Shown: positions 42,010-62,529 of the stretch, piece after piece
How positions within the stretch are numbered: the stretch's first letter is position 1
Layout: the number at the start of each line of letters is the position of its first letter
NCBI GenBank assembly: GCA_005503065.1
Contig: SCOE01000005.1
Coordinates: forward strand, 1-64,000
DNA: 64,000 nucleotides
DNA from: Comamonadaceae bacterium ALPHA2B
GTDB lineage: Bacteria > Pseudomonadota > Gammaproteobacteria > Burkholderiales > Burkholderiaceae_C
Reading direction: 5' to 3'
Made by a program: the position numbers and the translations under genes
The notes under the pieces: model-generated
Databases searched by the model: none
The model's input: only the letters and a program-made list of their open reading frames with translations
What the model was told of the DNA's origin: nothing

Positions 42010-42533
42010 TTGCTCGCGACAAGACGCCCTTCAGCGGGCGTGATGTCGCACGGCGCCGGCGCATGGATCGCTGACGATCGCGGCAGTGCAAAAAATCACG
42101 ACGTGATCTACTTTCATTGGGGGATGGGTAGTTTCGGCCTACTGCCGACACTCGCCGTACTCTCGCCACGCAGGCGAGAATGGTCGGTAACAAGAAATAG
42201 TCAGGGAGTTCCATATGTCGTCATTCGGTGACGTGATGTCTTTGCGCGCCTGCGTGCGGGGAACACGCGGCAGCAGCGGGTCCACGACCCGCGTCAGAGT
42301 TGTACTGAAGAGCCGGTCGTTGACGTGATCGGCCGCCGGGATCGCTGCGGGGTTGCCCACGCAACTCATCCGCGGCGCACGACCCGTCCGTGCAAGCCGT
42401 CTGGCTCGGTGCTTCCCTTGGCACCTGCGTGCGGACGTCCACGCATCCACCATCCGCCTTCTCGCCGCATTGCGGCCGGCGCAGCCCTGCGCTACCGCAG
42501 ATGCATCGACCTGCGGGGCACTGCCCTTCCAGC
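42010..42533. other. Gene-free boundary region before clpV
   Basis: No convincing gene. A 37-codon reading frame (ATG at 42214, stop at 42325-42327) has a good CAGGGAG SD-like sequence similar to that of tssB but no recognised product; it could be the broken start of a lost gene. Base composition is lower in G+C near 42080-42240 than on either side, consistent with a junction between core and accessory DNA. Confidence 0.4.
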
Positions 42534-45230
42534 ATGACGATTTCCAGAAGAGCTCTCTTCGGTAAGCTCAACCTGACGCTGTTCCGATCGATTGAGTCGG
42601 CCACCGCTTTCGCCAAGCTGCGTGGCAACCCGTACGTGGAACTGACGCACTGGCTGCACCAGCTCTGGCAGGTCGCCGACACCGATGTTCATCGCATCTG
42701 CCGGCACTACCAGATCGATGCCCAAGCCGTCGAGCGCGATCTGGTCGCAGCTTTGGCGGGTCTGCCGTCGGGCGCCACCTCGCTCAGCGACTTCTCGCAT
42801 CACATCGCGCCGGCCATAGAAAAGGCGTGGGTGCTCTGCAGCCTGGAGTTCGGCGGCCAATGCATCCGCAGTGGCTGGCTGCTGGCCGCATTGCTGCAGA
42901 CACTCGAACTGCGGCGCCTGCTGCTGGGCATCTCGGCGTCCTTCCACTCGATTCCGGTGGAGCAACTGACGCAAGCTCTGCCCGCGGTGATCGCAGGATC
43001 GTCCGAGGAGCGGGACGGTCCCTATGACGGTTCGGGGATGGCGCCTGCAACCCCCGGCGAGGCCAGCCAAGCCATGGCCAAAGCGGGCGACGGCAAGTCG
43101 GCGCTGGTTAAGTACTGCACCGACCTGACCGAACGTGCGCGCGCTGGCGAAATCGACCCGGTGATCGGGCGCGAGCACGAGATCCGAACCATGGTCGACA
43201 TCCTCCTGCGGCGTCGGCAGAACAACCCCTTGCTGACCGGCGAGGCGGGCGTGGGCAAGACCGCAGTGGTCGAGGGGCTCGCGCTGGCCATTGCAGGCGG
43301 TGGCGTGCCGCCGGCCCTGCGCGAAGTCCGGTTGCTCAGCCTCGATGTCGGCGCGCTGCTGGCGGGCGCCAGCATGCGCGGCGAGTTCGAGTCACGCCTG
43401 AAGGGACTGCTGGAAGAAGCATCTACATCCGCGCAGCCCATCATCCTGTTCATCGACGAGATCCACACCTTGGTGGGTGCGGGCGGTCAAGCCGGTACCG
43501 GTGACGCGGCCAACCTGCTCAAGCCGGCATTGGCGCGCGGTACCTTGCGCACCGTGGGCGCCACTACTTGGAGCGAATACAAGCGCTACATCGAGAAGGA
43601 CCCAGCGCTGACCCGGCGCTTCCAGGTGCTCCAGGTCCTGGAACCCCAGGAGGCCTCGGCGGTCGAGATGGTGCGGGGGCTGGTCGACGTCTTCGCACAG
43701 CACCATGGGGTCGTGGTCCTCGACGAGGCAGTACGCGCCGCGGTGGTGCTCTCGCACCGCTACATTCCGTCGCGCCAGCTCCCCGACAAAGCCATCAGCC
43801 TGCTGGACACGGCCTGTGCGCGCGTCGCGATGTCTCTGCATGCGCCACCGGCCGCGGTCGAGCATCTGCGCCAGCGCATGGCGGCGCTGCGGGCCGAAAT
43901 CGATCTGCTCCACAAGGAAGGCGTGATCGGCCAGGGCGGCGAAGGCCGCGCCGAACGCCTGGCCGCCGCACAGGCCCAGTTGCAGACTGCGACGAGCGAG
44001 CTCGAGCGCCAGGAGGCACGCTGGCAGGAGGAACTGGCGCTGGTGGAGCGCATCCAGTCATTGCGGCAGGAGCATCAAGCCGCCGCGGTAGGTCCCACTG
44101 AACCGAGTGCCTTGCCCCCGGAACTGCGCCAGCTGGGACAGGAGCTCGCCAAGCGGCAGCAGGACACCCCCCTCATCTTTCCGCAGGTCGACGAATCCGT
44201 CGTGGCGGCCATCATCTCGGACTGGACCGGCATTCCCGTCGGGCGCATGGTCAAGGACGAGGTGGCGGCGGTGTTCCAGTTGCAGGCCACCCTTGACCGC
44301 CGGGTCATCGGTCAGGCCCGTGCGCTGGCGGCGATCGCCGAGCGGGTGCAAACGGCACGCGCACGCCTGACCGATCCGAACAAGCCCGTCGGCGTCTTCC
44401 TGTTGGTCGGCCCTTCGGGCGTCGGCAAGACCGAAACCGCGCTGGCCCTGGCTGAGGCCATGTATGGCGGAGAGCAGAACCTCATCACCATCAACATGAG
44501 CGAGTTCCAGGAGGCGCACACCATCTCCACGCTCAAGGGTGCGCCACCGGGCTATGTGGGCTATGGCGAAGGCGGCGTGCTCACCGAGGCGGTGCGCCGC
44601 CGCCCTTACAGCGTGATCCTGCTCGACGAGGTCGAGAAGGCGCACCCGGATGTGCACGAGATCTTCTACCAGGTCTTCGACAAGGGCTGGATGGAAGACG
44701 GGGAGGGGCGCCACATCGACTTTCGTAACAGCACGATCCTGCTGACCAGCAATACCGGCTCCGACCTGATCGCCAGCCTCTGCGAGGACCCGGCCCTGAT
44801 TCCTGACGTGGCGGCGCTGCGCGAGGCGCTGCAGCCGGTGCTTCGCCAGGTGTTCCCGGCCGCGTTCATCGGCCGCCTGTCGGTCGTGCCCTACCTGCCT
44901 CTGGCGGAAGAGGCGCTCGGCAACATCGTCTCACTCCACCTGGACCGCGTTGTCGACCGAATGCAGGCGCAGCACGGCATCGCGCTGAGCTACAGCTCCG
45001 AGTTGGTCCGATATGTCATCGACCAGTGCGGTACCCATGAAACCGGGGCCCGTCGCCTCATCGGCTTCATCGAACAGAACCTGCTGCCCGTCCTCGCGCG
45101 CCATTGGCTGGGTGCGCTGCAGGACAAGCGGCGGATTGCCCGGATCTTCGCGGACGTCGCCTCCGGGAACGACGCCCCACACGATGCCAGAGGAGGAGAC
45201 GCCATCGCCTGCCAGATCGACTACGTCTGA
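42534..45230 (+). CDS. clpV: Type VI secretion AAA+ ATPase ClpV (TssH)
   Basis: An 898-residue ClpV, the double AAA+ unfoldase that disassembles contracted TssB/TssC sheaths. An N-terminal domain (about 1-155) precedes AAA1 (Walker A GEAGVGKTA at about 236-243, Walker B ILFIDEIHTLVGAGG), a coiled middle domain, and AAA2 (Walker A GPSGVGKTE near 626, VILLDEVEKAHPD). Length and motifs suggest an intact protein. The start ATG lacks a clear SD sequence. It stands next to tssB but its other partner tssC is destroyed here, so it has no complete local sheath to act on. Confidence 0.93.
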   Translation: MTISRRALFGKLNLTLFRSIESATAFAKLRGNPYVELTHWLHQLWQVADTDVHRICRHYQIDAQAVERDLVAALAGLPSGATSLSDFSHHIAPAIEKAWVLCSLEFGGQCIRSGWLLAALLQTLELRRLLLGISASFHSIPVEQLTQALPAVIAGSSEERDGPYDGSGMAPATPGEASQAMAKAGDGKSALVKYCTDLTERARAGEIDPVIGREHEIRTMVDILLRRRQNNPLLTGEAGVGKTAVVEGLALAIAGGGVPPALREVRLLSLDVGALLAGASMRGEFESRLKGLLEEASTSAQPIILFIDEIHTLVGAGGQAGTGDAANLLKPALARGTLRTVGATTWSEYKRYIEKDPALTRRFQVLQVLEPQEASAVEMVRGLVDVFAQHHGVVVLDEAVRAAVVLSHRYIPSRQLPDKAISLLDTACARVAMSLHAPPAAVEHLRQRMAALRAEIDLLHKEGVIGQGGEGRAERLAAAQAQLQTATSELERQEARWQEELALVERIQSLRQEHQAAAVGPTEPSALPPELRQLGQELAKRQQDTPLIFPQVDESVVAAIISDWTGIPVGRMVKDEVAAVFQLQATLDRRVIGQARALAAIAERVQTARARLTDPNKPVGVFLLVGPSGVGKTETALALAEAMYGGEQNLITINMSEFQEAHTISTLKGAPPGYVGYGEGGVLTEAVRRRPYSVILLDEVEKAHPDVHEIFYQVFDKGWMEDGEGRHIDFRNSTILLTSNTGSDLIASLCEDPALIPDVAALREALQPVLRQVFPAAFIGRLSVVPYLPLAEEALGNIVSLHLDRVVDRMQAQHGIALSYSSELVRYVIDQCGTHETGARRLIGFIEQNLLPVLARHWLGALQDKRRIARIFADVASGNDAPHDARGGDAIACQIDYV

Positions 45231-45327
45231 TGTCACCGAGTTGCCAGTTCCGTCGCCCGCCTCGGCCTGAAGGCTGGTGCGGCAATTCTTCCAACCCTTG
45301 AATCTCGTCCACCCACCAGGGAGTTTT

Positions 45328-45852
45328 ATGTTCAACAACAGCAGTCAGAAGTTCATCGCCCGCAACCGGGCGCCGCGCGTGCAGATCGAGTACGACGTGG
45401 AAATCTACGGTTCCGAGAAAAAGATCGAACTGCCGTTCGTGATGGGCGTGCTGGCCGACCTGTCGGGCAAGCCCGTGCAGGCGCTACCGCCGGTCAGCGA
45501 GCGCAAGTTCCTCGACATCGACATCGACAACTTCGACGAGCGTATGAAGGCCATCCAGCCGCGCGTCGCGTTCGCCGTGCCCAACACGCTATCGGGCGCC
45601 GGCCAACTCATGGTCGACATCACCTTCGAAAGCATCGACGACTTCTCGCCCGCCGCCGTGGCTCGCAAGATCGAGCCGCTCAAGCAATTGCTCGACGCGC
45701 GCACCCAGCTGTCGAACCTGCAAACCTACATGGACGGCAAGGCAGGCGCCGAGAGCCTCATCAACAAGCTGATGCAGGACCCCGCGCTCATGAAGGCGTT
45801 GGCCGCCGCGCCGAAGCCCAAGGTCGAGGACGGCGCGGAGGCTGCCGCCTGA
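45328..45852 (+). CDS. tssB: Type VI secretion sheath small subunit TssB (VipA)
   Basis: A 174-residue TssB. NRAPRVQIEYDVE, LPFVMGVLADLSG, RKFLDIDIDNFDERM and LLDARTQLSNLQTYMDGK are the conserved blocks. It normally polymerises with TssC into the contractile sheath. The ATG at 45328 follows CAGGGAG. The gene appears intact though its partner is not. Confidence 0.95.
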   Translation: MFNNSSQKFIARNRAPRVQIEYDVEIYGSEKKIELPFVMGVLADLSGKPVQALPPVSERKFLDIDIDNFDERMKAIQPRVAFAVPNTLSGAGQLMVDITFESIDDFSPAAVARKIEPLKQLLDARTQLSNLQTYMDGKAGAESLINKLMQDPALMKALAAAPKPKVEDGAEAAA

Positions 45853-45900
45853 GGCGTGATCGACAACACATCGTCTCAGTCAGTTTTAGGGAGAGGTCTC

Positions 45901-46834
45901 ATGAAATCAAGCAATAAGCAAACCACAGTCGCTGCAAAAGCCCCTGGAATACATGGACCCCGACGCGACGGCCAACGCCAACCTGTCGGCCCGCCTGCCC
46001 TACCTGTTCGCCAGCACACGCTTCGCGCACTACCTCAAGTGCATCGTGCGCGACAAGATCGGCAGCTTCAAGGAGCGCGACGACATGCAGCGCTGGCTCA
46101 ACGAGTGGATCATGCATTACGTCGATGCCGACCCGGCGAACTCATCGCAGGACACCAAGGCGCGCCGCCCACTCGCGGCGGCGGAAGTGGTGGTCGAGGA
46201 CGTCGAAGGCAGCCCCGGCTACTACAGCGCCAAGTTCTTCCTCCGTCCTCATTTCCAACTCGAAGGCCTCACGGTCTCTTTGCGGCTGGTGGCCGACGCG
46301 CTCAGCCCTGAATCCGTGATGCAGCAATTGACGGCCCTGCGCGAGGCCGCCGGCGGCGACCCCAAGGCCCCTGTGCACCAGCTCGCGCAGGCGGCCCGAG
46401 AGACGCATGCCATCAACACCTGGTGCCGCGACCACCTGAGCGACGAGGCACCGACGCTCCAGCCGCTGCTGCGCGTGCTCGACCCGTTCCTGCCGCCGGA
46501 GCCGCCGGCCGCCGCACCCGAGGCGGCGGACCCGGCCGGTGCCGCTCCCCTCGCCATCGTGCCGACCGGTACAACGCTCTTGCCAACCACCGCCATGCCC
46601 TTGCCAGCCAGCGGCCCGGCCGCCTCCCGCGACGACGTGCTGCGCACCATCCGCGCCGCCCGCCAGTGGTTCGAAACCCACGAGCCCAGCAGCCCTGTCG
46701 CCGTGCTGCTCAGGCAGGCCGAGCGCATGGTCGGCAAGCGCTTCTCGCAGGTGGCCGACGCCATCCCGCTTGACCTGCTGCACAAGTGGGAGTCGGCAGA
46801 CGATGACGGGAGCCGTGAAAGGGGTTACCTGTGA
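45901..46834 (+). pseudogene. tssC: tssC remnant joined to the 3' part of tssA
   Basis: The ATG at 45901, with a GGGAGAGG SD sequence 48 bp after tssB, begins MKSSNKQTTVAAKA, like a TssC N-terminus. About 15 codons later the sequence jumps to the last ~115 residues of TssC in another frame: LEYMDPDATANANLSARLPYLF, then YLKCIVRDKIGSFKERDDM and FFLRPHFQLEGLTVSLRLV. Some 350 residues are missing and the frame is shifted. At about 46291 the same open frame continues into a TssA C-terminal region (SRDDVLRTIRAARQWFE, HEPSSPVAVLLRQAERMVGKRF). So two deletions fused tssC to tssA. The 294-codon open frame from 45953 could still be translated but cannot build a sheath. Confidence 0.85.
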
Positions 46835-47820: not shown

Positions 47821-47967
47821 GTGAACCTGCCGTCATCTGCCTCTGAAGACATCGTCATCCCGCGTTCGGTCGTGGACGTCACACGCGCCGAAGAAGTCGC
47901 CTACTGGATGGCGACGCTGGGAACTGTACCCATTGGCGCACAAGCTGCTGTCCAAGGTCACGGCTGA
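47821..47967 (+). CDS. Short DUF3606-like reading frame, probably truncated
   Basis: A 48-codon frame from a GTG with an AAGGAG SD sequence 7 nt upstream. Residues 13-34 (IPRSVVDVTRAEEVAYWMATLG) resemble the core of the small DUF3606 family (a short N-terminal strand, then ExxYW and LGV). After MATLG the homology stops and the frame runs antisensically meaningless through the beginning of the integrase remnant, so a deletion junction near 47911-47920 is likely. Confidence 0.4.
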   Translation: MNLPSSASEDIVIPRSVVDVTRAEEVAYWMATLGTVPIGAQAAVQGHG

Positions 47968-48781
47968 AGACATCCGGGGAATCTATGAAACCCAGATCAA
48001 GCGCTCGGAACGGCAGGCGATCTATGCCATGCAGGTGATTCGTGCCGTGCTGCGCTGGCACGGCGTCGTGGTGCCCAACAACCCCTTGGGGCAGGAAACC
48101 GCCGGCCGCGACCGTATCGTGCTGGCGCCGCCCAAGGGCAACCCTGCGCCGATCCCGCCGGAGCGGCTGGGTGCCTGGTGGCGGGCTGCTTGCGCATCCG
48201 ACCGCGTAGCGGCCGATTACTATCGGTTCCAGTTGCTCACCGGCTGCCGCGGCGTGGAGATACTGGGCAGCAAGCGATACGGGTACGAGCCTATCAAGGT
48301 GGTAGACGTGAATTTGGAGGGGGGCCGCATCGTGCTGCGGGACACGAAGAACCGTAGCGATCACAAACTGCTGCTGTCCCGGCAGGCTCTGGCAATCGCG
48401 AGGGCGTATTGCACGGGCAGGAAGCCCGAGGATCGCTTGTTTGCGATCACCGACGCGCGCAAGACGCTGGCGCGGATCAACGCTGAGGCCGGTACCACCG
48501 TTCAGGGTCACGGGCTGCGGGCAACGTTCGCCAGCATTGCGGAGGAACTGGTGTCCGGCGGTGTGCTCAAGCGGATGCTCAACCACGTGGCGGGCAATGA
48601 TGTCACTCTCGGGCACTACATCGGCAAGAGCGAGGCCCAGTTGAGGGCTGGGTGGCAGACCGTGGCGGATTTCGTGGAGGCCGCCGCAGCAGTGCGGGAT
48701 GGACCTTCAGCTCTGCCGGCCTCAGATGAAGCGGTGCTTGAAAGCGCGATGGAAAGAGAGGCTGCACTTTGTGCCGCTTGA
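47933..48781 (+). CDS. Tyrosine recombinase/integrase, N-terminally truncated
   Basis: The open part is about 282 residues, starting from a TTG; family members are near 400. Homology begins upstream at WELYPLAHKLLSKVTAEDI without any start codon of its own. The catalytic domain is complete: Arg in TGCRGVEI, a central lysine region, HGLRATF (H-x-x-R), a late His/Trp-type residue and the tyrosine in GHYIGKSE. The arm-binding and part of the core-binding domain are lost, so activity is doubtful. It probably marks the end of an older integrated island; no flanking attachment repeat or tRNA was found. Confidence 0.75.
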   Translation: MAHKLLSKVTAEDIRGIYETQIKRSERQAIYAMQVIRAVLRWHGVVVPNNPLGQETAGRDRIVLAPPKGNPAPIPPERLGAWWRAACASDRVAADYYRFQLLTGCRGVEILGSKRYGYEPIKVVDVNLEGGRIVLRDTKNRSDHKLLLSRQALAIARAYCTGRKPEDRLFAITDARKTLARINAEAGTTVQGHGLRATFASIAEELVSGGVLKRMLNHVAGNDVTLGHYIGKSEAQLRAGWQTVADFVEAAAAVRDGPSALPASDEAVLESAMEREAALCAA

Positions 48782-48947: not shown

Positions 48948-49667
48948 GTGCCCACGGCTGTGCTCATTGACGGCGGCTACTTCGTGAAGCGCTATCGCGC
49001 CATTTGCCGGGAGAGCACACACGATGCGGCGCGTGCGGCCGATCTGGCTTGGCGGTGGGCCATGCTGCACATGCGCGAGGGAGGCATGCGTGGAGAACAG
49101 CGGAAGCATGAGCTGTATCGCATCTTCTTCTACGACTGCCCCCCGCTGCTCAAGAAGCTGCACAACCCCCTGACCGGCAAGGTCGTGGATTTCTCGAAAA
49201 CCGATGAAGCGCGCTTTCGCATCGAACTGCATGAGCGCCTGCGTTGCAAGCGCAAGGTTGCCCTGCGCATGGGCCATCTTTCCGGGGATACGCCATGGAC
49301 GCTCGTGCCGTCGGCCATCCAGGACCTGCTCAAGAAGAAGCGCAGCTTCGAGGACCTGAGCGAAGCTGATCTGCTGCCCAATGTCCGCCAGAAGGGGGTG
49401 GACATGCGCATCGGCATCGACATTGCCTCGCTGGCCTTCAAGCGGCAGGTTGACCAGATCGTTCTCGTCGCCGGCGATGCCGACTTCGTTCCCGCCGCGA
49501 AACTCGCTAGGCGGGAGGGGATCGACTTCATCCTTGATCCGATGTGGCGCTCTGTCGACCCGGGGCTCAATGAGCACATCGACGGACTTCGGTCCACCTG
49601 CACTCGACCTCCTCCGAAGGCCGCAAGCGAAAGGCCCAACGATGGCATCGGTGCACAGCCGGCATGA
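48948..49667 (+). CDS. NYN-domain (LabA/DUF88-like) putative ribonuclease
   Basis: A 239-residue NYN-domain protein of the PIN-like nuclease fold. Acidic site residues are visible: D in AVLIDGGYFVKR (residue 8), D in KGVDMRIGIDIASLAF and DAD in LVAGDADFVPAAKLAR. It is expected to be a metal-dependent RNase. The GTG start has GGAGGAATC directly upstream. A TTGACA sits at 48864-48869 with a weak -10 17 bp on. It opens a three-gene rightward group of nuclease-like and unknown genes after the integrase. Role unknown; such genes often lie in defence islands. Confidence 0.82.
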   Translation: MPTAVLIDGGYFVKRYRAICRESTHDAARAADLAWRWAMLHMREGGMRGEQRKHELYRIFFYDCPPLLKKLHNPLTGKVVDFSKTDEARFRIELHERLRCKRKVALRMGHLSGDTPWTLVPSAIQDLLKKKRSFEDLSEADLLPNVRQKGVDMRIGIDIASLAFKRQVDQIVLVAGDADFVPAAKLARREGIDFILDPMWRSVDPGLNEHIDGLRSTCTRPPPKAASERPNDGIGAQPA

Positions 49668-49823
49668 CGCTGGGTGCCCGGGCGGCCGCTTACCATCGCG
49701 CCGGCCTCCTGCCAGCCTCGACTGGCGCGCATGATGTTCGAGCGTCCGAGCTGCTGATCTCCTCTCGCCCGAGAAGCGCTGGTGTTCAGCAGCGACCCAG
49801 CACCTTTCAACCATCCCATCGAC

Positions 49824-50492
49824 ATGGCAGAAAAAAAAAGCATCGAGGTTTTCCAGAACCTGCATCTGAAAAGCCGTTCGTCCGCGAGCTCGATCCGGAC
49901 CGGCATCCTGGCTCGGCTTCAGGCGCCATGGCGCCATGATTCCGAGCGCGAGGCCGAAATGCGCGGGGCTGCCACGGACGACGAGGACGTGATCGTCCTC
50001 GTGCGGGCGGAATTCGACGATATCGACGAGTCCGCCTTGGTGCTCTGGCAGGAAGAAGCCGACAGCTATAGCGTCTCGAACATCGTGCCGCGCCATGTCA
50101 GCGAGCTTGGCATCACCAAGTACAACGCAATCCTGCAGGACTTCGCGGACCGCATCGCGACACCTGCCGCTCAGGCCGGGGACTTCGAGGTCGAGATGAC
50201 CTCGGCCAGCCGGACGCTGGACGACTGGCTGGCCGCGGGGCCAGCGGACGCGTTGCGGCGGTTTTCGCGCCTGGCCAACAAATCCACCGGAGCGGCCCAC
50301 CCAATGGACCGCGAGCGCTGGTACGCGTTCCTGATCGCCACGCATCGCAGCACCCAGCGGCTGAATGCCGATCAACTGGCCCGATGGCTTGTCGAGGTCG
50401 AGAACTGGCCTGCCGAGAGAGCACAAGAACTGGCGATCGACTATGAGTCCGCGCTCGGACTGCTGGAGCAATACGACCAGTCGCCTCCATGA
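49824..50492 (+). CDS. Hypothetical protein coupled to a PIN-like nuclease
   Basis: A 222-residue soluble protein I do not recognise. It is acidic in the first half (TDDEDVIVLVRAEFDDIDES) and helical towards the end. It may start at a GTG at 49782 instead, adding 14 residues. Directly after the ATG comes a run of nine A residues (49831-49839), which could permit slippage. Its stop overlaps the start of the PIN-like gene (ATGA), the arrangement of two proteins needed in fixed ratio, such as an antitoxin or regulatory partner. That role is inference only. Confidence 0.7.
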   Translation: MAEKKSIEVFQNLHLKSRSSASSIRTGILARLQAPWRHDSEREAEMRGAATDDEDVIVLVRAEFDDIDESALVLWQEEADSYSVSNIVPRHVSELGITKYNAILQDFADRIATPAAQAGDFEVEMTSASRTLDDWLAAGPADALRRFSRLANKSTGAAHPMDRERWYAFLIATHRSTQRLNADQLARWLVEVENWPAERAQELAIDYESALGLLEQYDQSPP

Positions 50493-51193
50493 GCCTGAGT
50501 CCTCAGGAAATCGCCAGCCTGGCGGCGCTGGGCGCCCCGGTGTTGTGCGTCGACACATGCACGGTACTTGATGTGATCCGCGACATCACGCGAGAGACGG
50601 TGATGCCCAGCGATGTGGCTGCCGGGCTCGCCTTGCTCGCTGCAGCAGAGACGGGCTCGGACCTTGTCGTTCTCATGGCCGAGCAGGTCGACCTGGAACT
50701 CACAACCCACATCGAGGGTGTCGAGCAGGAGGCCTCAAACGGCCTGACCAGATTCCAGTCGCAGGCTCAACGCATCCACGATGTCGCCGTGGCCTACGGC
50801 GCCCGGGGCCTCCTGCAGGTCCAGCACATCGCGGGGCATGTGGGGCGGGCCAGAAAGGTGCTCGACCGCTGGAAGAGGGTCGCGCGACCGATTCCTCACA
50901 ACGATAGCGTTGCCAGCCGCGCCTTCCGGCGCGTCAACGCACCACGCACACCGGCTCGCAAGGGCAAAGAATCAATGAAGGATTGCGTGATCGTCGAGGC
51001 CTACATCGAGACGGCAGGCCAGTTGCGTGCCGCCGGCCTTGCGTCCCCGATCGTGTTCGCGTCATCGAACACCAAGGAGTATCACGCACCGAACACCACG
51101 CGCCTTCAGAACGATATTGCCACGGACCTCAGCGTCGTCGGAGTGGAGTACGCCCCGAACTTCGGCGCGGCGAAACATCTTCTGGATCTGTAG
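50489..51193 (+). CDS. PIN-like domain protein
   Basis: A 234-residue protein with PIN-nuclease features: VLCVDTCTVLDVIRD near the N-terminus (first catalytic Asp), an acidic helix EQVDLELTTHIE, then KDCVIVEAYIE and SPIVFASSNTKEY, matching the third acidic position and the last strand. It resembles DUF4935-type PIN proteins. The start is coupled to the upstream unknown gene. Likely an RNase effector; a stand-alone VapC is less likely because it is about 100 residues longer than typical VapC. Confidence 0.7.
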   Translation: MSLSPQEIASLAALGAPVLCVDTCTVLDVIRDITRETVMPSDVAAGLALLAAAETGSDLVVLMAEQVDLELTTHIEGVEQEASNGLTRFQSQAQRIHDVAVAYGARGLLQVQHIAGHVGRARKVLDRWKRVARPIPHNDSVASRAFRRVNAPRTPARKGKESMKDCVIVEAYIETAGQLRAAGLASPIVFASSNTKEYHAPNTTRLQNDIATDLSVVGVEYAPNFGAAKHLLDL

Positions 51194-52670: not shown

Positions 52671-52793
52671 CGGTCAAGGTCTGCGCGTGCGCTGCACGCT
52701 GGCGGCCTGCGGCCGTCTGTGAACCTGTGACCGCTGCGCTGCGGCGTGCCGTCTCCGGTCTCGGGCAATCTCGCCCGATCACTGGAGTCCGTC
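52671..52793 (+). repeat. Conserved leader, copy A (upstream of radC)
   Basis: One of three related leaders in this window, each ending at a start codon. Shared blocks: GTCAAGGTC, CGCTGGCGGCCTG, GAACCTGTGAC, GTGCCG, and a hairpin TCGGGC-AATCTC-GCCCGA at 52761-52778 just before the start region. Confidence 0.7.
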
Positions 52794-53324
52794 ATGGCGC
52801 ACGATCTTCTTTCCTCTCTCGATTCCTTCGTTGCCGTTCCCTCGTCTTCGCTGCTGGTCCGTGACCGTGCTGGCGAGTACCGGCCGGCAGTAGCCAACGA
52901 GGTGTTGCTGGCCGCGCAGAGGGTGCTGGCGGGCCGGATGCGCGGCAGCGAGGTGCTGGCTTCGCCGGCGGCGGTCCGGGACTTCCTGCGCGCGCGGCTG
53001 GGTGCGTTGCCGCACGAGGTCTTCGCGGTCGTCCACCTGGATGTGCAGTTCCGGGTTCTGGACTACGTGGAGATGTTCCGTGGCACGGTGAGCCAGACGT
53101 CGGTGTATCCGCGCGAGATCGTGAAGGAGACGCTGACGCGCAACTCGGCGGCGCTGCTTCTGGTCCACAACCACCCCTCGGGCTCGGCCGAACCTTCGCG
53201 GGCCGACCAGATGCTGACGCAGACGCTCAAGAACGCGCTGGCGCTTGTGGACGTGCGGATCATCGACCACCTGATCGTGGCGGGACCGACGGTGCTGTCG
53301 TTCGCGGAGCGGGGACTTCTCTGA
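52794..53324 (+). CDS. radC: RadC/JAB-domain protein of a mobile element
   Basis: A 176-residue RadC-like protein with the metal-binding JAMM motif HNHPSGSAEPSRAD and the upstream Glu in EVFAVVHLD. Element-borne RadC proteins like this are standard cargo of integrative and conjugative elements; the role is unknown and not clearly repair. It lacks the N-terminal helix-hairpin-helix region of chromosomal RadC. The ATG at 52794 is 16 codons into a longer open frame and follows the conserved leader. Confidence 0.9.
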   Translation: MAHDLLSSLDSFVAVPSSSLLVRDRAGEYRPAVANEVLLAAQRVLAGRMRGSEVLASPAAVRDFLRARLGALPHEVFAVVHLDVQFRVLDYVEMFRGTVSQTSVYPREIVKETLTRNSAALLLVHNHPSGSAEPSRADQMLTQTLKNALALVDVRIIDHLIVAGPTVLSFAERGLL

Positions 53325-53381
53325 GGGCGGGGGCCTCAGCCCCTTCTTTTCAGCGTACAAAAGTTACGGATCAGAGGGCCA

Positions 53382-53798
53382 TCACAAGCCATCCGTATTG
53401 CGGAATATCCGGCGGAGGCGCCGACTCAAGCGAGGCAGATCCCTTGTTTCGCATTCCCACACTTCGATCACTTTCCAGCCGGCGTGACGCAGTTCGGCCT
53501 TGTTTCGGCGATCTCGCGCTCGGTTCCGAGCAAACTTGGCGAGCCAGTATTCGGGTCGGGTCTGCGGAATCGTCCCGCGAGGACACTCGTGGTGATGCCA
53601 AAAGCATCCGTGCACAAACAGCACGACACCGTGTCGACGAAAGACCAAGTCTGGCGAACCTGGCAAGTTTCGATCGCACAATCGAAAGCGCAGGCCCAAG
53701 CTGTGGGCAAGCGACCGCACGACCATTTCAGGTTTCGTGTCTCGCCGGCCAACGCGAGACATCATTCGGCTGCGGGCCTGGGGACTTACTGTATCCAT
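53382..53798 (-). CDS. vsr: Very short patch repair endonuclease (Vsr)
   Basis: A 138-residue Vsr nuclease, which nicks 5' of T in T:G mismatches that arise when 5-methylcytosine deaminates. D50 in GSPDLVF, and H63 and H68 in HGCFWHHHEC align with the catalytic Asp and His of E. coli Vsr. It lies 67 bp downstream of the m5C methyltransferase in the same direction, its normal partner. Confidence 0.94.
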   Translation of the reverse strand: MDTVSPQARSRMMSRVGRRDTKPEMVVRSLAHSLGLRFRLCDRNLPGSPDLVFRRHGVVLFVHGCFWHHHECPRGTIPQTRPEYWLAKFARNRARDRRNKAELRHAGWKVIEVWECETRDLPRLSRRLRRIFRNTDGL

Positions 53799-53865
53799 CG
53801 CATTTCCCGATTCGGCGCGATCAGCAAGCCTACTACGTTGATCCGGAAAGCGTATGCGTGACAGT

Positions 53866-54843
53866 TCAGAACAATTGCATCACCGACAACGCGACAGCGC
53901 GGCCAAGAGCCAGCGGCACTCCGTTGCCAATCTGGCGCGCTATTGACGCGCGATCGCCATGGAACTCCCACGAATCCGGGATGCCCTGAATACGCGCACC
54001 TTCGCGCAGCGTGAGCACACGATGCTCCGTCGGGTGGATGTATCGACCCTTGGACGCATTCTGGAACGAGCAACGAAGTGTATTGGCAGGAGCATCGAAG
54101 TCCATTCGACCCCATACATCCGTTGCCTGACACCCCATACGTGACCACGAAGGCGGGCACAGGTCAGGTGCCCGCCGCATAACGTCGCGCTTGTCTCCCT
54201 TCGGAGGAATCTTCTTGAAGCGAGCGAGAGCCAACGCGCCAGGCACAGGGGCCACATGCAATCCGCCCGCTTGGGGCTTCAATGGCAAGCCGTCGAACGC
54301 TTCTCGCACGGTCCTGTGGATCCGCGCCGTAGGTGTCGGCATTGAGGGCAAACCGATGCGCGAAAAGATTCCGAACGCCCGCATACGCAGTTGAGGAGCG
54401 CCGAAGTCTGCAGCGTTGAGAATCCACTCCGCGCTCTCGTAGCCTTGGTTGCGCATACGGCGCTTCAACGTACGCCAAAAGCGCGACTTCAAGAAAGGCG
54501 GCACGTTCTCAACCACCACCACGGTCGGATTGCCAGTCGCTGCCCAGTCAGCGATGCAGAGGGATAACGCATTCCGCTCGTCGAAATGATCGCGTTTTCC
54601 TAATGTGCTGAATCCCTGACACGGAGGACCGGCAAGCAGCAAATCGGCGCAAACGTCGCTGTGAACATCCCTCACGTCGGCGCCCATCGCATCAGCTCCG
54701 ACGTTTGCCATGAAGGTCGCCCGTGCTCGCGGATCAGCCTCTACGGCAAGTGCAGTGCGCACTCCGAATTCCTTGAAAGAATATCCAAGGAGCCCTGCTC
54801 CGGAGAAGAGATCGATGGATTTGAGCTCAGCTCGATGATTCAC
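53866..54843 (-). CDS. DNA (cytosine-5-) methyltransferase
   Basis: A 325-residue m5C methyltransferase. Motif I LFSGAGLLG, motif IV GPPCQGFS with catalytic C75, motif VI VENVPP (E112), motif VIII QLRMRAFG and motif X RQIGNGVP are intact; the target-recognition region (about 200-255) is short. The recognition sequence cannot be read. The GTG at 54843 is chosen because homology begins just after it and it lies inside a palindrome that also adjoins the divergent XRE gene. An upstream in-frame start (54909) would lie within that gene. Confidence 0.92.
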   Translation of the reverse strand: MNHRAELKSIDLFSGAGLLGYSFKEFGVRTALAVEADPRARATFMANVGADAMGADVRDVHSDVCADLLLAGPPCQGFSTLGKRDHFDERNALSLCIADWAATGNPTVVVVENVPPFLKSRFWRTLKRRMRNQGYESAEWILNAADFGAPQLRMRAFGIFSRIGLPSMPTPTARIHRTVREAFDGLPLKPQAGGLHVAPVPGALALARFKKIPPKGDKRDVMRRAPDLCPPSWSRMGCQATDVWGRMDFDAPANTLRCSFQNASKGRYIHPTEHRVLTLREGARIQGIPDSWEFHGDRASIARQIGNGVPLALGRAVALSVMQLF

Positions 54844-54853
54844 ACAATGAATC
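54837..54853. promoter_or_regulatory. Operator candidate GATTCA-N5-TGAATC, site 1
   Basis: A perfect 6+6 inverted repeat with a 5-bp centre. It covers the proposed GTG start of the methyltransferase and ends 9 bp before the ATG of the divergent XRE gene, in the region of overlapping divergent promoters. Position and symmetry suit the XRE controller. Confidence 0.7.
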
Positions 54854-54862
54854 TTATCGTAT

Positions 54863-55219
54863 ATGCTGCGCTCTATGCAAGAAGTTCCGGCGGACCCGGC
54901 GGCGATCATCCTCAGAGCCCGAAAAATTGTCGGCGAGACGCAACGAGAATTCGCGGCCCGCCTGGGCAGTGCTCAGTCTCTTGTCTGCAAGTACGAGCGT
55001 GGCGAAGTCTCGCCGCCTGCCGACCTTCTGATTCAATGTATGAATCTAATTCGAGTCGGCATACCAGACATCAGCGAGGAAGATCTCGCCACGCTAGTCA
55101 GGACGCGTTTGAGGGGCGCTCGTATGGCTCCAGCACGGCTGGCCGTCGCGAACCTGATTCAGTGCATTCCTGAAAGCCGGCCTCAGTCAACTCGACGTCG
55201 GCCTCCCACTTCTGAGTAG
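54863..55219 (+). CDS. XRE-family controller of the methylation module
   Basis: A 118-residue helix-turn-helix protein (HTH about residues 16-62: RKIVGETQREFAARLGSAQSL, then CKYERGEVSPP). An alternative ATG at 54875 gives 114 residues. No SD sequence precedes either ATG, so a leaderless transcript, common for controller (C) proteins of restriction-modification systems, is possible. It is divergent from the methyltransferase and its stop is 23 bp from the end of the convergent ATPase-nuclease gene. The C-terminal 50 residues are Arg-rich without clear homology. Confidence 0.82.
   Translation: MLRSMQEVPADPAAIILRARKIVGETQREFAARLGSAQSLVCKYERGEVSPPADLLIQCMNLIRVGIPDISEEDLATLVRTRLRGARMAPARLAVANLIQCIPESRPQSTRRRPPTSE
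55030..55046. promoter_or_regulatory. Operator candidate GATTCA-N5-TGAATC, site 2
   Basis: A second exact copy of the 6+6 inverted repeat, inside the XRE coding sequence (codons for LIQCMN), 193 bp centre to centre from site 1. Only the 5-bp spacers differ. Two-site control with DNA looping is possible. Confidence 0.6.
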
Positions 55220-55242
55220 CTCAGCTGCACAGCCCTGTGCGG

Positions 55243-57576
55243 CTACCCGCTGCTCTTCTCTGCTGACGCGGGAGATGTGGGTACAGCGACCTCGGAAAAT
55301 GCCAGTTCTTCTGCAGCGTCTGACCGCGGCGCATTTGCCTGCGCGTCGGCTGTGGCTCCTTCTACTTCGCCTTCTTCGAGTGCCCTCTCGAATGCGTCAA
55401 TAGCGTCTGAGTGGATCGCCTGTGCCCTCTGGAGGAGATGCTCGAGGCCCAATACCTCCCAGGCGGTCTTTGCATCCCATTCCTTGCTGATTGCATAGAG
55501 AAGATCGCGCTGGCCACTCGCCCTCGTCTCAGGATCAGGCATTGCGCCGATGAGGTAACCGTGAACCGTGACTTTGACTTTGAGCTCCGTTTCGACGAAC
55601 TCTTCGACCCGCCGCATGTAGCTCTTGAGTTGCTGGAGGTGAGCGTTTTCGAGCGGAATAGTTGGGGACTTGAACTCGACGATCGTGATGACGTGCGGTG
55701 CGGCAGTATCTGACATCAGAAAGACGAGATCCGGACGATCCTTGTCCGCCTTCTCTTCTTCCGTGACGATCGATGCGAACTTGTCGACTTTGAGAACCTT
55801 TGCAAGCTTGCTTGCCAGCTTGTTGAGGTCCTCATCGCTGGTCAGGTACTTCGAGTACTCCGGCTTGATCAGCCAAGGTTCGTCCTTGAAGAGCTGGTGC
55901 AGTTCGGCTTCGATGCCTTTCTTGCGCCACAGTTCTTCGCCCTTCTCGATCAGCTTCCGAAGGCTGATGATCCCGGAGCGACGGCCGCGATAGAGCTTAA
56001 GCGCGTCGCTGCGCTCGATGTCCGCTAGCTCCAGCAACTCTCCGGCGATTTGATGAACGGTCTGCGGATCAGTCTGGAGCTCAATCAGCCGAATCAGGAC
56101 CTCTCCGGCACTGACGGAACTGACTACCAGCGGCGCGAGTTCCTTAAATTCGACACTGTCCGTGCCGTGCCGCAAAGCGATCGTTCGAAGCAGCTTGCCT
56201 GCCGGTGCGCGGCTGCGCTTGGGAAGGCTCTCGATGATTCGGTTCATCCGCTTGCCTTCCTCGTTGGACTGAATCTCGCCGTCAACCTTCGACTCTCTGT
56301 GTTTCGCGTGCGCGGCGAGCCCTGTCTTCATCAAGTCCGACACATGCGTGAGGATCGCTTCAACGACGTCGTTGTCCTCGCGCAGCTGCGTGCGGTTGGT
56401 ATTCACGAAGTCGACCCCGAGTTGGTCGAGCGTATCGGCTACCACCACACACTCAAGGTAGTCCTGCGCATGGAAGTTGTGCATACCAGTGCCCAGCTTG
56501 AAAAGCGATGGTCCTGCGGCCAAGCGCTTGTTGCAGTAGATGCGCGCGCCGCGCTTCCCCGCAGGCAAATGATCGCCGGACTGGCGGAATCGAACTGCGT
56601 ACCTGATGGGCAATGTGCCTACATCCGGAATGTTGACGTAGTCCTCTACCATACCGTCAGGCGAGGCGGTAGCCGCCGACGGAAAGACGAAATCGTATGC
56701 GACAGGGGCAGCCTCGATCTTGTTGCCGTTCAACAAGATCAGGAAGTCATCCGCCTCAATGCCGTAAAAGGCCTCGGCCAAGGTATTGGCGATCTTGTCC
56801 TGTCGAGAACGGACCGCGTCAGGCTTGAGGCCTTTGAGCGTGATGGTCGTGCCGCTGGCCTCGATGTCAGCGTCGCTCTCGTATTCGGCAGGGATGGCGA
56901 TTTCGCCAAGGTTCTCCACGTTCGCGAGTGCTGCAGCGTCCAGAGTGAAGACAGTCGCGAAGTCGTGCCCCGCTCGCTTCGTTCTGACAATGACTTGGCC
57001 GGCTATTCCGAATCCTGCAAGCTTACCGAGGCCCTTACGCCCCATCACCGGACGTTTGCCGCCTTCTGACTTCAGGTTCGTCTCTTCACCCGCGGCATCC
57101 GCACGGCGGCGTCGGTTGATTGGCAAGAACTTTTGGGCCACGTCTTCGGGGCTCATGCCGTGACCGTAGTCGTGGATGACGATCGCCAGATCTCCGGGGA
57201 GCGTCTTCTTGTACAGCGACACGTCCGGCGGAGCGATGGCGCCGACGATGGCTGGAGCGGCATCACCGCCGTCCGATAGCGCGGCGAGACTGCCCTCCGG
57301 ACTCCCGTTCGTAGTAGCCGCCGTGGCAGGTTCAGCTACCGCTTTTTTCGCTTCCGCCTTCGCCTTCTTGTCGGCCTCTTTTAGCGCCAGTCGCTGAGCT
57401 TCGATCTCTTCGAACGGAATCGTGACTTCGACCTTCGGCGCGTTGCCATCGTACGCGTTTGCGACAAACTCAACCAAGCATTTGCCCAGCGTGGTGTACA
57501 TATTGATGCCGAGGGCTTCGAGCATGCCGCCTTGGATAGCGAGCTTGAACTGGGCAGGTTTGACGAGAGCAGCCAT
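55243..57576 (-). CDS. GHKL ATPase fused to a PD-(D/E)XK-like nuclease (restriction-type effector)
   Basis: A 777-residue protein. The N-terminal GHKL (Hsp90/MutL/histidine-kinase-type) ATPase has the N box (E36, N40, D43 in CLVEFVANAYDG), G1 box DYGHG (136-140) and G2 box GRKGLGKLAGFG (179-190). A charged Ala/Lys insert fills about 57-115. Near residue 613-638 are RPDLVF and VEFKSP, which fit D616, E634 and K636 of a PD-(D/E)XK nuclease (DUF4263-like). GHKL ATPases with methyltransferases and nucleases have been proposed as restriction components (MutL/MORC-like). Here it converges with the XRE controller; no adjacent separate restriction gene is seen, so it is the probable restricting part. 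Confidence 0.82.
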   Translation of the reverse strand: MAALVKPAQFKLAIQGGMLEALGINMYTTLGKCLVEFVANAYDGNAPKVEVTIPFEEIEAQRLALKEADKKAKAEAKKAVAEPATAATTNGSPEGSLAALSDGGDAAPAIVGAIAPPDVSLYKKTLPGDLAIVIHDYGHGMSPEDVAQKFLPINRRRRADAAGEETNLKSEGGKRPVMGRKGLGKLAGFGIAGQVIVRTKRAGHDFATVFTLDAAALANVENLGEIAIPAEYESDADIEASGTTITLKGLKPDAVRSRQDKIANTLAEAFYGIEADDFLILLNGNKIEAAPVAYDFVFPSAATASPDGMVEDYVNIPDVGTLPIRYAVRFRQSGDHLPAGKRGARIYCNKRLAAGPSLFKLGTGMHNFHAQDYLECVVVADTLDQLGVDFVNTNRTQLREDNDVVEAILTHVSDLMKTGLAAHAKHRESKVDGEIQSNEEGKRMNRIIESLPKRSRAPAGKLLRTIALRHGTDSVEFKELAPLVVSSVSAGEVLIRLIELQTDPQTVHQIAGELLELADIERSDALKLYRGRRSGIISLRKLIEKGEELWRKKGIEAELHQLFKDEPWLIKPEYSKYLTSDEDLNKLASKLAKVLKVDKFASIVTEEEKADKDRPDLVFLMSDTAAPHVITIVEFKSPTIPLENAHLQQLKSYMRRVEEFVETELKVKVTVHGYLIGAMPDPETRASGQRDLLYAISKEWDAKTAWEVLGLEHLLQRAQAIHSDAIDAFERALEEGEVEGATADAQANAPRSDAAEELAFSEVAVPTSPASAEKSSG

Positions 57577-57810
57577 GGTTGTCGTGACCGAATATGAGTC
57601 GTGTATCTCATTGTCTCAGACCATTGCGGGGTCGCTCCCAACACATGAGTTCACCGCGACGGCACGGCTTTCCGTGCAGATCTCTGGGCCTGACAGCCTG
57701 GGCACTACCTTTCACACGCGAGCAGTGATGGCCGTTCCGTGTCGACCGCATGTCGGTGGTGGGTTTGCAATCCCTTCACCGTATCACGACGTGCTCCCCC
57801 TTCTAGGGCG
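57577..57810. other. Gene-free stretch upstream of the ATPase and of leader B
   Basis: No gene. It must carry the leftward promoter for the ATPase-nuclease gene; no clear -35/-10 pair could be picked. It marks the right edge of the restriction-like cargo, where element backbone sequence resumes. Confidence 0.4.
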
Positions 57811-57933
57811 GCGCGCCGCTGGCGCTTGCGGCCTGGCGGCCGTCCGCGGTTGCGCCTTCGACCCCTGACGGCGTGCGCTGCGTCGTGCCGGTCACGGTTC
57901 CGGGCAATCCCGCCCGAGCAACCGGAGACCATC
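57811..57933 (+). repeat. Conserved leader, copy B
   Basis: Related to the radC leader: GCGGCCTGGCGGCCGTC, GACGGCGTGCGCTGCGTCG, GTGCCGGTC, and the hairpin CGGGC-AATCCC-GCCCG at 57901-57916, ending at the ATG at 57934. Confidence 0.7.
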
Positions 57934-58328
57934 ATGGACGACAAATCCTACGTTTCGCTGAAACAACGCCTGTGCCTCGTGTGCAGCACTTTTTTCGACA
58001 CTCGCAACCTGCTGCTGGACAAGCGCCTGCGCGCGAGCATGAAGCGCCGCACGACGACGGGCTGGGCCTGTGTCCCGAGCACCAGAGGCTGGCCGATGAA
58101 GGCTTCGTCGCGCTGGTCGAATGCGATCCGCAGCGAAGCGGTGCGCCAGCGGCCAATGGCAACTTGAAACCCGAGCAGGCGTATCGCATGGGGCGGCTGG
58201 CGCATCTCAAGCGCGAAGCGTTCGCCCGGCTGTTCAACGTGCCGATCACCGAGAAGCAGACGTGCGTTTTTGTCGAGCCGGGCGTGATCGAGCAGTTGCA
58301 GTCGATGGTGCCGCCGACCACGGATTGA
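57934..58328 (+). pseudogene. Element-conserved hypothetical gene with a frameshift
   Basis: The first frame gives MDDKSYVSLKQRLCLVCSTF...KRRTTTGW; after position about 58066 the sense continues in another frame as LCPEHQRLADEGFVALVEC, LKPEQAYRMGRLAHLKREAF and ends VEPGVIEQLQSMV. Restoring one G in the GGG at 58064-58066 (TGG-GGC) would join the two halves into a protein of about 131 residues. A CxxC (CLVC) and a later Cys suggest metal binding. Family members are common on such elements; function unknown. The indel may be real or a sequencing error. Confidence 0.75.
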
Positions 58329-58865
58329 TCACTCGCTGAAGCCCTCGGTGCGTCGTCCTTCGTGGCCGGCGCACCTTTTCTTTGGCTGCGCCTGGTGTCG
58401 ATGCTTCGCGCCTGCGGCGCTGCGCTTGCCTCCGGGGGATCGACGGGTCAGCCCATCCCCGCCGCGCTTCGCTTGGCGCCCCCTGCAAGCCCGCCGAACC
58501 GGTGATGCCGGATCGGCCGGTTCTTCCTGTCTTTCGTGTCGAACGGGTTCTCTTCGGTGGCGCTGAGCGCCACCTGCGCGCCGCCTGCGGCGGCTTGCCT
58601 GGCCTTTGCGGGCGCTCCTCCCGTCAAGGGCCGCTGCGGCGCCCGTGTCCTCGGCTTCGCCTGCGGGCCGCGCCAGCGCCTTCGCTTCCTCCCTTGACGG
58701 CGCACCCGCGCCGGCCCCAGCCGGCCGTCATGGCCGCGAAAGCGCTTCGCGGCCCCTGCGGAGCCCGAACTTCCAAGGAGAGCGCCTATGCAGATCAGCC
58801 AATGAATCCACCCCTTTTCCCTTTCTTTCATTCACCACGTCCCCGCGCGGGACAGGAGATTTCAC
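58329..58865. other. Gene-free stretch upstream of parB with a coupled mini-frame
   Basis: No recognised protein. It holds a 10-bp inverted repeat CCGTCAAGGG (58621-58630) / CCCTTGACGG (58691-58700). At 58789, after AAGGAG, a five-codon frame MQISQ ends in an ATGA that starts a further short frame running into the parB start region, which may be a translational leader. Confidence 0.4.
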
Positions 58866-62396: not shown

Positions 62397-62529
62397 GCCG
62401 TCAAGGTCGGCGCGTGCTGCGCACGCTGGCGGCCTGGCGGCCGTCCTGCGGAACCTGTGACGGCGGCGCGGCGCCGTGCCGCTCCCGGTCCCGGGCAATC
62501 CCGCCCGGACACCGTTCAAGGAGGACGAC
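62397..62529 (+). repeat. Conserved leader, copy C
   Basis: Related to copies A and B: GTCAAGGTCGGCGCGTGC, CGCTGGCGGCCTGGCGGCC, GAACCTGTGACGG, GTGCCG, and hairpin CCGGGC-AATCCC-GCCCGG at 62491-62508. The outer pair is C-G here and T-A in copy A, a compensating change. Confidence 0.7.

Follow-up and report, generated by a model that had tools for sequence, protein, structure and literature searches.

A 4426-bp cassette inserted in a mobile element of Comamonadaceae bacterium ALPHA2B is probably a mobile, self-contained restriction-modification system, and its most likely role is to defend the host cell through cleavage of foreign DNA that lacks its mark. The cassette lies in the first 64,000 nucleotides of contig SCOE01000005.1 (assembly GCA_005503065.1), referred to here as the window, and its four genes occupy positions 53382-57576 in the order vsr (- strand), 5-methylcytosine (m5C) methyltransferase (-), XRE regulator (+) and a gene for a 777-residue protein, P0004 (-). 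Sequence and structural models support an intact methyltransferase, a nuclease and an intact GHKL ATPase on one chain (P0004), a Vsr protein, and an XRE regulator with a likely operator. An earlier note, made from the letters of this DNA, had given the same identities to these four open reading frames (ORFs); the frames are where it placed them, Pfam and NCBIfam agree on what they encode, and its view of the locus as a small restriction-like module, carried as cargo and joining ATPase and nuclease in a single chain, is supported as well.

Conservation of the methyltransferase-ATPase pair

The methyltransferase gene (53866-54843, - strand; 325 amino acids (aa) from a likely GTG start at 54843, with the longest ORF reaching 54909) matched Pfam DNA_methylase with 156.4 bits and holds the PCQG, ENV and QIGNGVP motifs, thus bearing out the claim of a complete m5C enzyme. 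The GTG at 54843 is probably the true start rather than 54909, since the ATG of a Polaromonas relative stands at the same position of the candidate operator described below. The adjoining gene (53382-53798, -) encodes a very-short-patch repair endonuclease, Vsr, of 138 aa (NCBIfam vsr TIGR00632, 146.7 bits, cut-off 97.85; Pfam Vsr, 97.3 bits), whose translation contains D50, H63 and H68 as had been claimed.

Loci drawn in by the ATPase numbered 62 (42 in genomes and 20 in viral contigs), several of them near-copies, so that counts made on them are not independent. An m5C methyltransferase was found nearby in 57 of these loci (37/42 in genomes and 20/20 in viral contigs), lying at most 500 bp from the ATPase gene in 52, whereas Vsr was present in 18 and XRE in one. 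Thus, the set of four genes proposed in the earlier note as a search query is not conserved, whereas the methyltransferase-ATPase pair is; by its distribution this pair appears to be the conserved core of the module, with Vsr and XRE as accessory genes. No methyltransferase was found at L038, L044, L054, L056 and L058, of which L038, L044 and L058 run to the contig end. ATPase and methyltransferase identities were correlated (r = 0.86 over 48 pairs, window included), a value that none of 2000 permutations equalled; this calculation left out 10 duplicate loci, L015, and loci with an ATPase frame below 550 aa or a methyltransferase frame below 280 aa. Co-occurrence of the two genes in other genomes, on which the restriction proposal had been made to hang, was therefore seen.

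The Vsr-ATPase-methyltransferase combination is carried on plasmids of Rhizobium and Shinella, and the methyltransferase-ATPase pair lies amid phage genes on a Pantoea plasmid, on prophage-like contigs, and in the P2-like coliphage PhiR44_1 (L083:4842-7890), where it stands between the gpQ and gpA genes under the depositors' names ParaMORC3 and Dcm. Record titles of the homologues cover Proteobacteria, Planctomycetes, Verrucomicrobia, Streptomyces and others. In a set of 199 genomes close to that of the window, the ATPase matched in six, the window's own counted, and it was absent from all 14 other genomes of the same genus searched as part of this set. Scans with P0004 alone gave no relatives in viral or genome contigs, and those with a three-homologue alignment did.

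The ATPase-nuclease and its family

P0004 (55243-57576, -; 777 aa) matched HATPase_c_3 with 47.6 bits (cut-off 25). When it was aligned with 44 of 49 usable homologue references (alignment A3; L007, L018, L071, L077, and L079 left out), E36, N40, D43, D136, G138, G140, K181, G182, and G184 were invariant, and E556, D616, E634, and K636 were conserved in at least 90% of the 45 rows. In a wider set of 61 sequences, which includes truncated and badly aligned rows, D616 was D in 52, E634 was E in 49, and K636 was K in 49. The GHKL boxes and the D616/E634/K636 triad quoted in the earlier note are thus not chance occurrences, being conserved across aligned relatives. Alignment A5 also left out L006, L015, L016, and L017, and a nuclease-only alignment (A7) left out L030 too because of its degenerate nuclease residues; the D/E/K invariance in A7 is biased by this omission, whereas the counts over 45 and 61 rows include L030.

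AlphaFold2 gave usable predictions for the whole of P0004 (41 sequences; mean predicted local distance difference test score (pLDDT) 80.8) and for residues 549-738 alone (40 sequences; pLDDT 81.6). In a Foldseek comparison of the P0004 model with the PDB, Hsp90/TRAP1 chains and the MORC3 ATPase cassette topped the list over about 500 columns; together with the invariant residues, this indicated that an S5 domain follows a GHKL domain whose ATP motifs are intact. The nuclease region as modelled (residues 549-738, positions 55363-55932, -, with D616, E634, and K636) was best matched by 8ti9_B, the Bacillus cereus Shedu nuclease domain (E 5.2e-4, probability 1.00), which was the sole PDB match at E ≤ 0.001. 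Further Shedu chains, that of E. coli SduA included, came only at E values of 0.07 or higher and were mixed with unrelated chains. A nuclease fold, as had been suspected from the three residues, is therefore predicted for this region. The Pfam model SduA_C matched 12 of the 45 aligned sequences at E 0.01.

NCBIfam NF050001, which covers the BbrUII/HgiDII restriction enzymes, and the PADLOC REase_II models both matched 45/45 sequences. These matches point to P0004 itself as the likely restriction enzyme of the cassette. The earlier remark that no separate restriction enzyme gene is present was true, but it does not leave the module without an enzyme: that role most likely falls to the ATPase-nuclease, hence the missing gene. 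Judged by sequence, the core of the module belongs to a known kind (paraMORC3; BbrUII/HgiDII), yet to a divergent clade of it. The likeness to BbrUII/HgiDII lies in the NF050001 match in all sequences scanned and in the m5C methyltransferase partner. According to the accessible text of PMC5867850, M.HgiDII recognises GTCGAC. This sequence was rejected as an assumed target for the window's enzymes, because, of the loci scoring 662-775 bits with NF050001 (L054, L055, L062, and L067), three (L055, L062, and L067) have methyltransferases 25-29% identical to that of the window, and at L054 none was found.

As described in 2008 in the accessible part of PMC2292703, paraMORC3 proteins combine GHKL and S5 domains with a C-terminal restriction-fold nuclease bearing an E-D-ExK signature, are encoded near cytosine methylases and Vsr, were proposed to loop DNA, with SFII helicases stressed, and are set apart by the absence of the MORC-specific S5 motif. 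P0004 shares the GHKL, S5 and C-terminal nuclease arrangement, the E-D-ExK residues, and the cytosine methylase and Vsr neighbours, but no helicase is found among the four genes of the window; neither a Shedu identity of the nuclease nor an XRE operator figures in that part of the paper. The earlier note had called the logic of an ATPase-nuclease on one chain little studied, which was too strong. VcSduA (2025), which like P0004 carries a GHKL ATPase and a Shedu nuclease on a single chain, lost phage defence through either an ATPase (E27A) or a nuclease (K557A) substitution, as reported in the accessible text of PMC12137116; it differs in that methyltransferase, methylase, Vsr, and HgiDII are absent as terms from that text. 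A joining of HgiDII-type enzymes with Shedu was not found in the literature searched, most subscription papers being outside its reach.

The VcSduA case bears on whether P0004 could be a Shedu-like phage nuclease sensing something other than missing methylation (e.g., DNA ends or a modification), with the methyltransferase and Vsr as a separate orphan pair travelling along. VcSduA defends, and the accessible text of PMC12137116 names no methyltransferase or methylase; Shedu is also the best fold match of our nuclease, and there are homologues without a methyltransferase (L007 and L018). Since the methyltransferase accompanies the ATPase in 57/62 loci and diverges in step with it, and since the closest named model is that of a restriction enzyme, we regard this alternative as quite unlikely. 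Even less probable, in our view, is a repair module in which a MutL-like GHKL protein helps Vsr at deaminated m5C sites and the nuclease serves repair instead of restriction. The adjoining vsr gene, weak matches to the MutL model TIGR00585 in the GHKL part of 17/45 sequences, and the repair roles that Iyer et al. raised as possible for some paraMORCs (accessible part of PMC2292703) would fit such a module, whereas the 44/62 loci that have no Vsr, the pairs on prophage-like contigs and in a P2-like phage, and the match of the nuclease to Shedu do not. Restriction by a methylation-coupled ATPase-nuclease is thus the interpretation that we prefer.

The XRE regulator and its candidate operator

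The XRE regulator (54875-55219, +; longest ORF from 54863) matched HTH_3 with 27.2 bits (cut-off 23), and its true start is probably the ATG at 54875 because of the geometry seen in a Polaromonas metagenome-assembled genome (G078; loci L014 and L019). In this relative the ATPase is 67-68%, the methyltransferase 65%, and the XRE protein 45% identical to those of the window, and gene order and strands are the same; no Vsr was seen in its module. A palindrome, GATTCACACAATGAATC (54837-54853, no strand), spans the candidate xre -35 box and the methyltransferase start codon and is a candidate XRE operator. The 6.0-Mb genome has exactly two copies of the pattern GATTCA-N5-TGAATC, both of them in the cassette, the second being GATTCAATGTATGAATC (55030-55046, no strand) inside the XRE gene, 193 bp away from start to start; the reversed pattern had no copy in the genome. 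With up to two mismatches allowed, the window still contained just these two copies, and 22 of 100 shuffles gave two such matches by chance. The exact palindrome was present once in the 4.0 Mb of the Polaromonas genome, at the matching place, with a one-mismatch copy 196 bp downstream, and that locus (L019) was the only one of 65 module loci scanned to have it.

The candidate xre promoter TTCACA-17-TATGCT (54839-54867, +), obtained in a sigma-70-like scan, has its -35 box within the palindrome (TTCACA in the window, TTCATA in Polaromonas), followed in both by a 17-nt spacer, a -10 box (TATGCT and TAAGAT, respectively), and 7 nt to the ATG. On the other strand the palindrome overlaps a candidate methyltransferase -10 box (TAAGAT at 54851-54856, -, with TATGAT at the same place in Polaromonas), 7 nt before the GTG or ATG start, respectively, and the start codon forms palindrome positions 11-13 in both organisms.

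From this layout, XRE is best read as a putative repressor of itself and of the methyltransferase, and not as an activator of the nuclease. Some 2.7 kb separate the candidate operator from the 5' end of the nuclease gene, which converges with xre end to end on the opposite strand, and no palindrome copy was found at the nuclease-gene promoter in either the window or the whole-genome pattern search. The earlier note had spoken of a C-protein-like regulator; with its operator at its own and the methyltransferase promoter, and so far from the nuclease start, XRE is unlike a classical nuclease-activating C-protein. By sequence, XRE shares with C-proteins an operator that falls within its own gene's promoter, but xre does not precede and accompany the nuclease gene as a C gene would. 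For C.Csp231I and C.EcoO109I, a pair of CTAAG-N5-CTTAG sites spaced by 18 bp lies ahead of the C gene, and binding there raises PC and PM (accessible parts of PMC4321490 and PMC4824078). Likeness to them consists of a small XRE regulator in a restriction-modification locus and palindromes with a 5-bp centre; in contrast, the window has GATTCA-N5-TGAATC copies 193 bp apart, one of them intragenic, and placed to repress. A small XRE protein within a restriction locus and two palindromes centred on 5 bp, as in C.Csp231I (PMC4321490, accessible part), might suggest a C-protein of the classical type, acting on the nuclease gene by delay or activation. We consider this unlikely given the convergent genes, the nuclease promoter free of palindrome copies, and an operator lying over the -35, the -10, and the start codon. 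In addition, a profile of XRE (A6, built from four of the eight XRE sequences) compared with solved structures gave no significant match to a controller protein, the best being 'Regulatory protein C' at E 0.07. Repression of xre and of the methyltransferase remains our preferred reading, and this switch looks new.

XRE homologues were present in 7 of 399 genomes of the order, the window's own counted; widening the search to 369 genomes of the class yielded no further ones, and viral contigs gave eight weak matches. A different palindrome, AATGCA-N5-TGCATT, had perfect copies at several homologues (copies at the homologue/genome total: G264, 2/2; G196, 2/2; G175, 2/4; G351, 1/2). In G147 the sole perfect copy was on another contig, with one-mismatch copies 5' of its XRE homologue; there was none in G444 or the window's genome, and one in G078, located elsewhere. 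In 4/4 homologue loci whose upstream sequence was inspected, the proximal copy overlaps a TATAAT box. Neighbours of the distant XRE homologues presumably are other restriction or defence genes. Near-palindromes were found 185-196 bp downstream of the upstream site in seven of eight XRE loci, L137 having none. Random synonymous recoding produced equally good inner sites in 1.9% of trials for the window and in 13-31% for five other loci (the procedure was not applicable to L136). We therefore do not accept the inner palindrome at 55030-55046 as shown to be an operator; it is a less certain, candidate intragenic site.

Paired AATGCA-N5-TGCATT copies 30 bp apart were also observed at XRE homologues in L138 (8195-9354), L088, L139 (one-mismatch), and L140. 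These homologues precede a gene of 246-248 aa, which we take to be of DUF5131 type, and some have a TcmP-like gene nearby; they are possibly another defence module with a like switch. In L137 (4418-7990) an XRE homologue is divergent from a methyltransferase-like gene of 1061 aa, presumably Type IIG-like, and no such palindrome was found there.

Insertion site, proposed mechanism, and significance

The inserted cassette (53345-57770, 4426 bp, no strand) is bounded by element sequence on either side. Window pieces 52676-53344 and 57771-58339 aligned to the empty site in L123, where they are 43 bp apart as compared with 4426 bp in the window, and radC is near later backbone sequence also in L121, L124, and L141. 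The boundary at 57771 or 57772 was seen again in L122, L144, and L082, where a leader-like repeat of the element also begins. The module was present between radC and parB in none of six radC-bearing loci among 15 parB loci fetched; a distant, weak GHKL match in L131 lay outside this interval. In the same interval (53325-57872), the Pseudomonas aeruginosa PA83 plasmid carries an AAA ATPase as cargo, and a plasmid of Pseudomonas sp. BYT-5 carries reverse transcriptase, helix-turn-helix, and DUF2513 genes. From the other cargo and the empty sites in relatives, the interval reads as a cargo site and the four-gene module as an insertion in it. The reported insertion between RadC and ParB therefore holds, with radC on one side of the module and, more exactly, a small backbone ORF (57873-58328) ahead of parB on the other. 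The G+C content was 58-60% over 54001-58000 and about 70% in the element to the right.

A 62-nt repeat with a core like GGGCAATCCCGCCCG occurs at 52721-52782, 57860-57921, and 62451-62512, the later copies being 68-82% identical to the first; it sits at or just 5' of the starts of three mobile-element genes and resembles a leader or promoter unit that they share. To the left of the element, 42390-46834 holds what we take to be a type VI secretion cluster (ClpV- and TssB-like genes), followed by a phage-integrase-family gene (47933-48781; Pfam, 29.8 bits) and, at 48948-51193, by a gene with an NYN domain and a PIN-like one (PIN_12 under cut-off), which flank an unassigned 236-aa gene. An Rfam scan of the window gave no match reaching gathering scores.

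Several observations weigh against the interpretation of the cassette as a restriction-modification system with a repressed methyltransferase. P0004 scored 168.5 bits with NF050001, far under the curated cut-off of 550, and HgiDII-like site-specific cleavage is therefore not assured. The TM-score between the nuclease model and 8ti9_B was low (0.48-0.50), and SduA_C gave no match in P0004 up to E 1, so that the Shedu assignment of P0004 depends on the fold and on the relatives. In L030 (Rhizobiales; L030:5911-10379) the equivalents of D616 and E634 are lost, whereas the ATPase motifs, methyltransferase, and Vsr are kept, possibly making it a natural nuclease-dead version. The homologues L007 and L018 lack a methyltransferase, and shared ancestry of the whole module would also produce the identity correlation. 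Regarding the operator, which is deduced from sequence, the promoter scan of 53200-57900 returned one sigma-70-like site, that of xre, against 1.3 expected by chance, and among six other genomes searched the exact palindrome occurred twice in G175 and once in G147, on contigs without an XRE homologue.

The mechanism that we infer would involve a dimeric ATP-gated clamp, methylation-gated cleavage, leaderless starts, and a repressing direction of regulation. The methyltransferase would mark one short sequence on host DNA, and the GHKL protein would act as a dimer in which ATP binding shuts the GHKL/S5 clamp on DNA; clamp closure at unmethylated sites would license cleavage by the C-terminal Shedu-like nuclease, and ATP hydrolysis would reset the clamp. 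Vsr would repair the T:G mismatches arising from m5C deamination. XRE bound at 54837-54853 would block its own -35 box and, in the methyltransferase gene with its apparently leaderless transcript, both the -10 box and the start codon; in a new host without XRE, a burst of methyltransferase would come first and throttling after. The ATPase gene would be driven by its own promoter, where no operator copy was found.

Three features set this module apart: the divergence of its clade, a methylation-coupled member linked to Shedu, and a compact switch built on one operator. More tentatively, and with slightly less than even confidence, we propose that Shedu, paraMORC3, and BbrUII/HgiDII form one superfamily of GHKL clamps with a Shedu nuclease, acting either as lone phage nucleases or as methyltransferase-coupled, methylation-gated restriction enzymes; here, a dedicated repressor would be added that, from a single 17-bp operator, silences both its own promoter and the methyltransferase with its leaderless start, with a second operator in its own gene, balance being reached by methylase throttling and not by nuclease delay.

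The module links the Type II enzymes that bear the names HgiDII and BbrUII, predicted paraMORC3 proteins, and recently tested GHKL-Shedu defence proteins, and this family link makes it a testable question whether the ATPase of a Shedu nuclease may place it under control of methylation. For a restriction cassette at a cargo site, it also offers a sharply defined candidate pair of regulator and operator, whose predicted logic, methylase throttling, would be unlike the usual delay of the nuclease.

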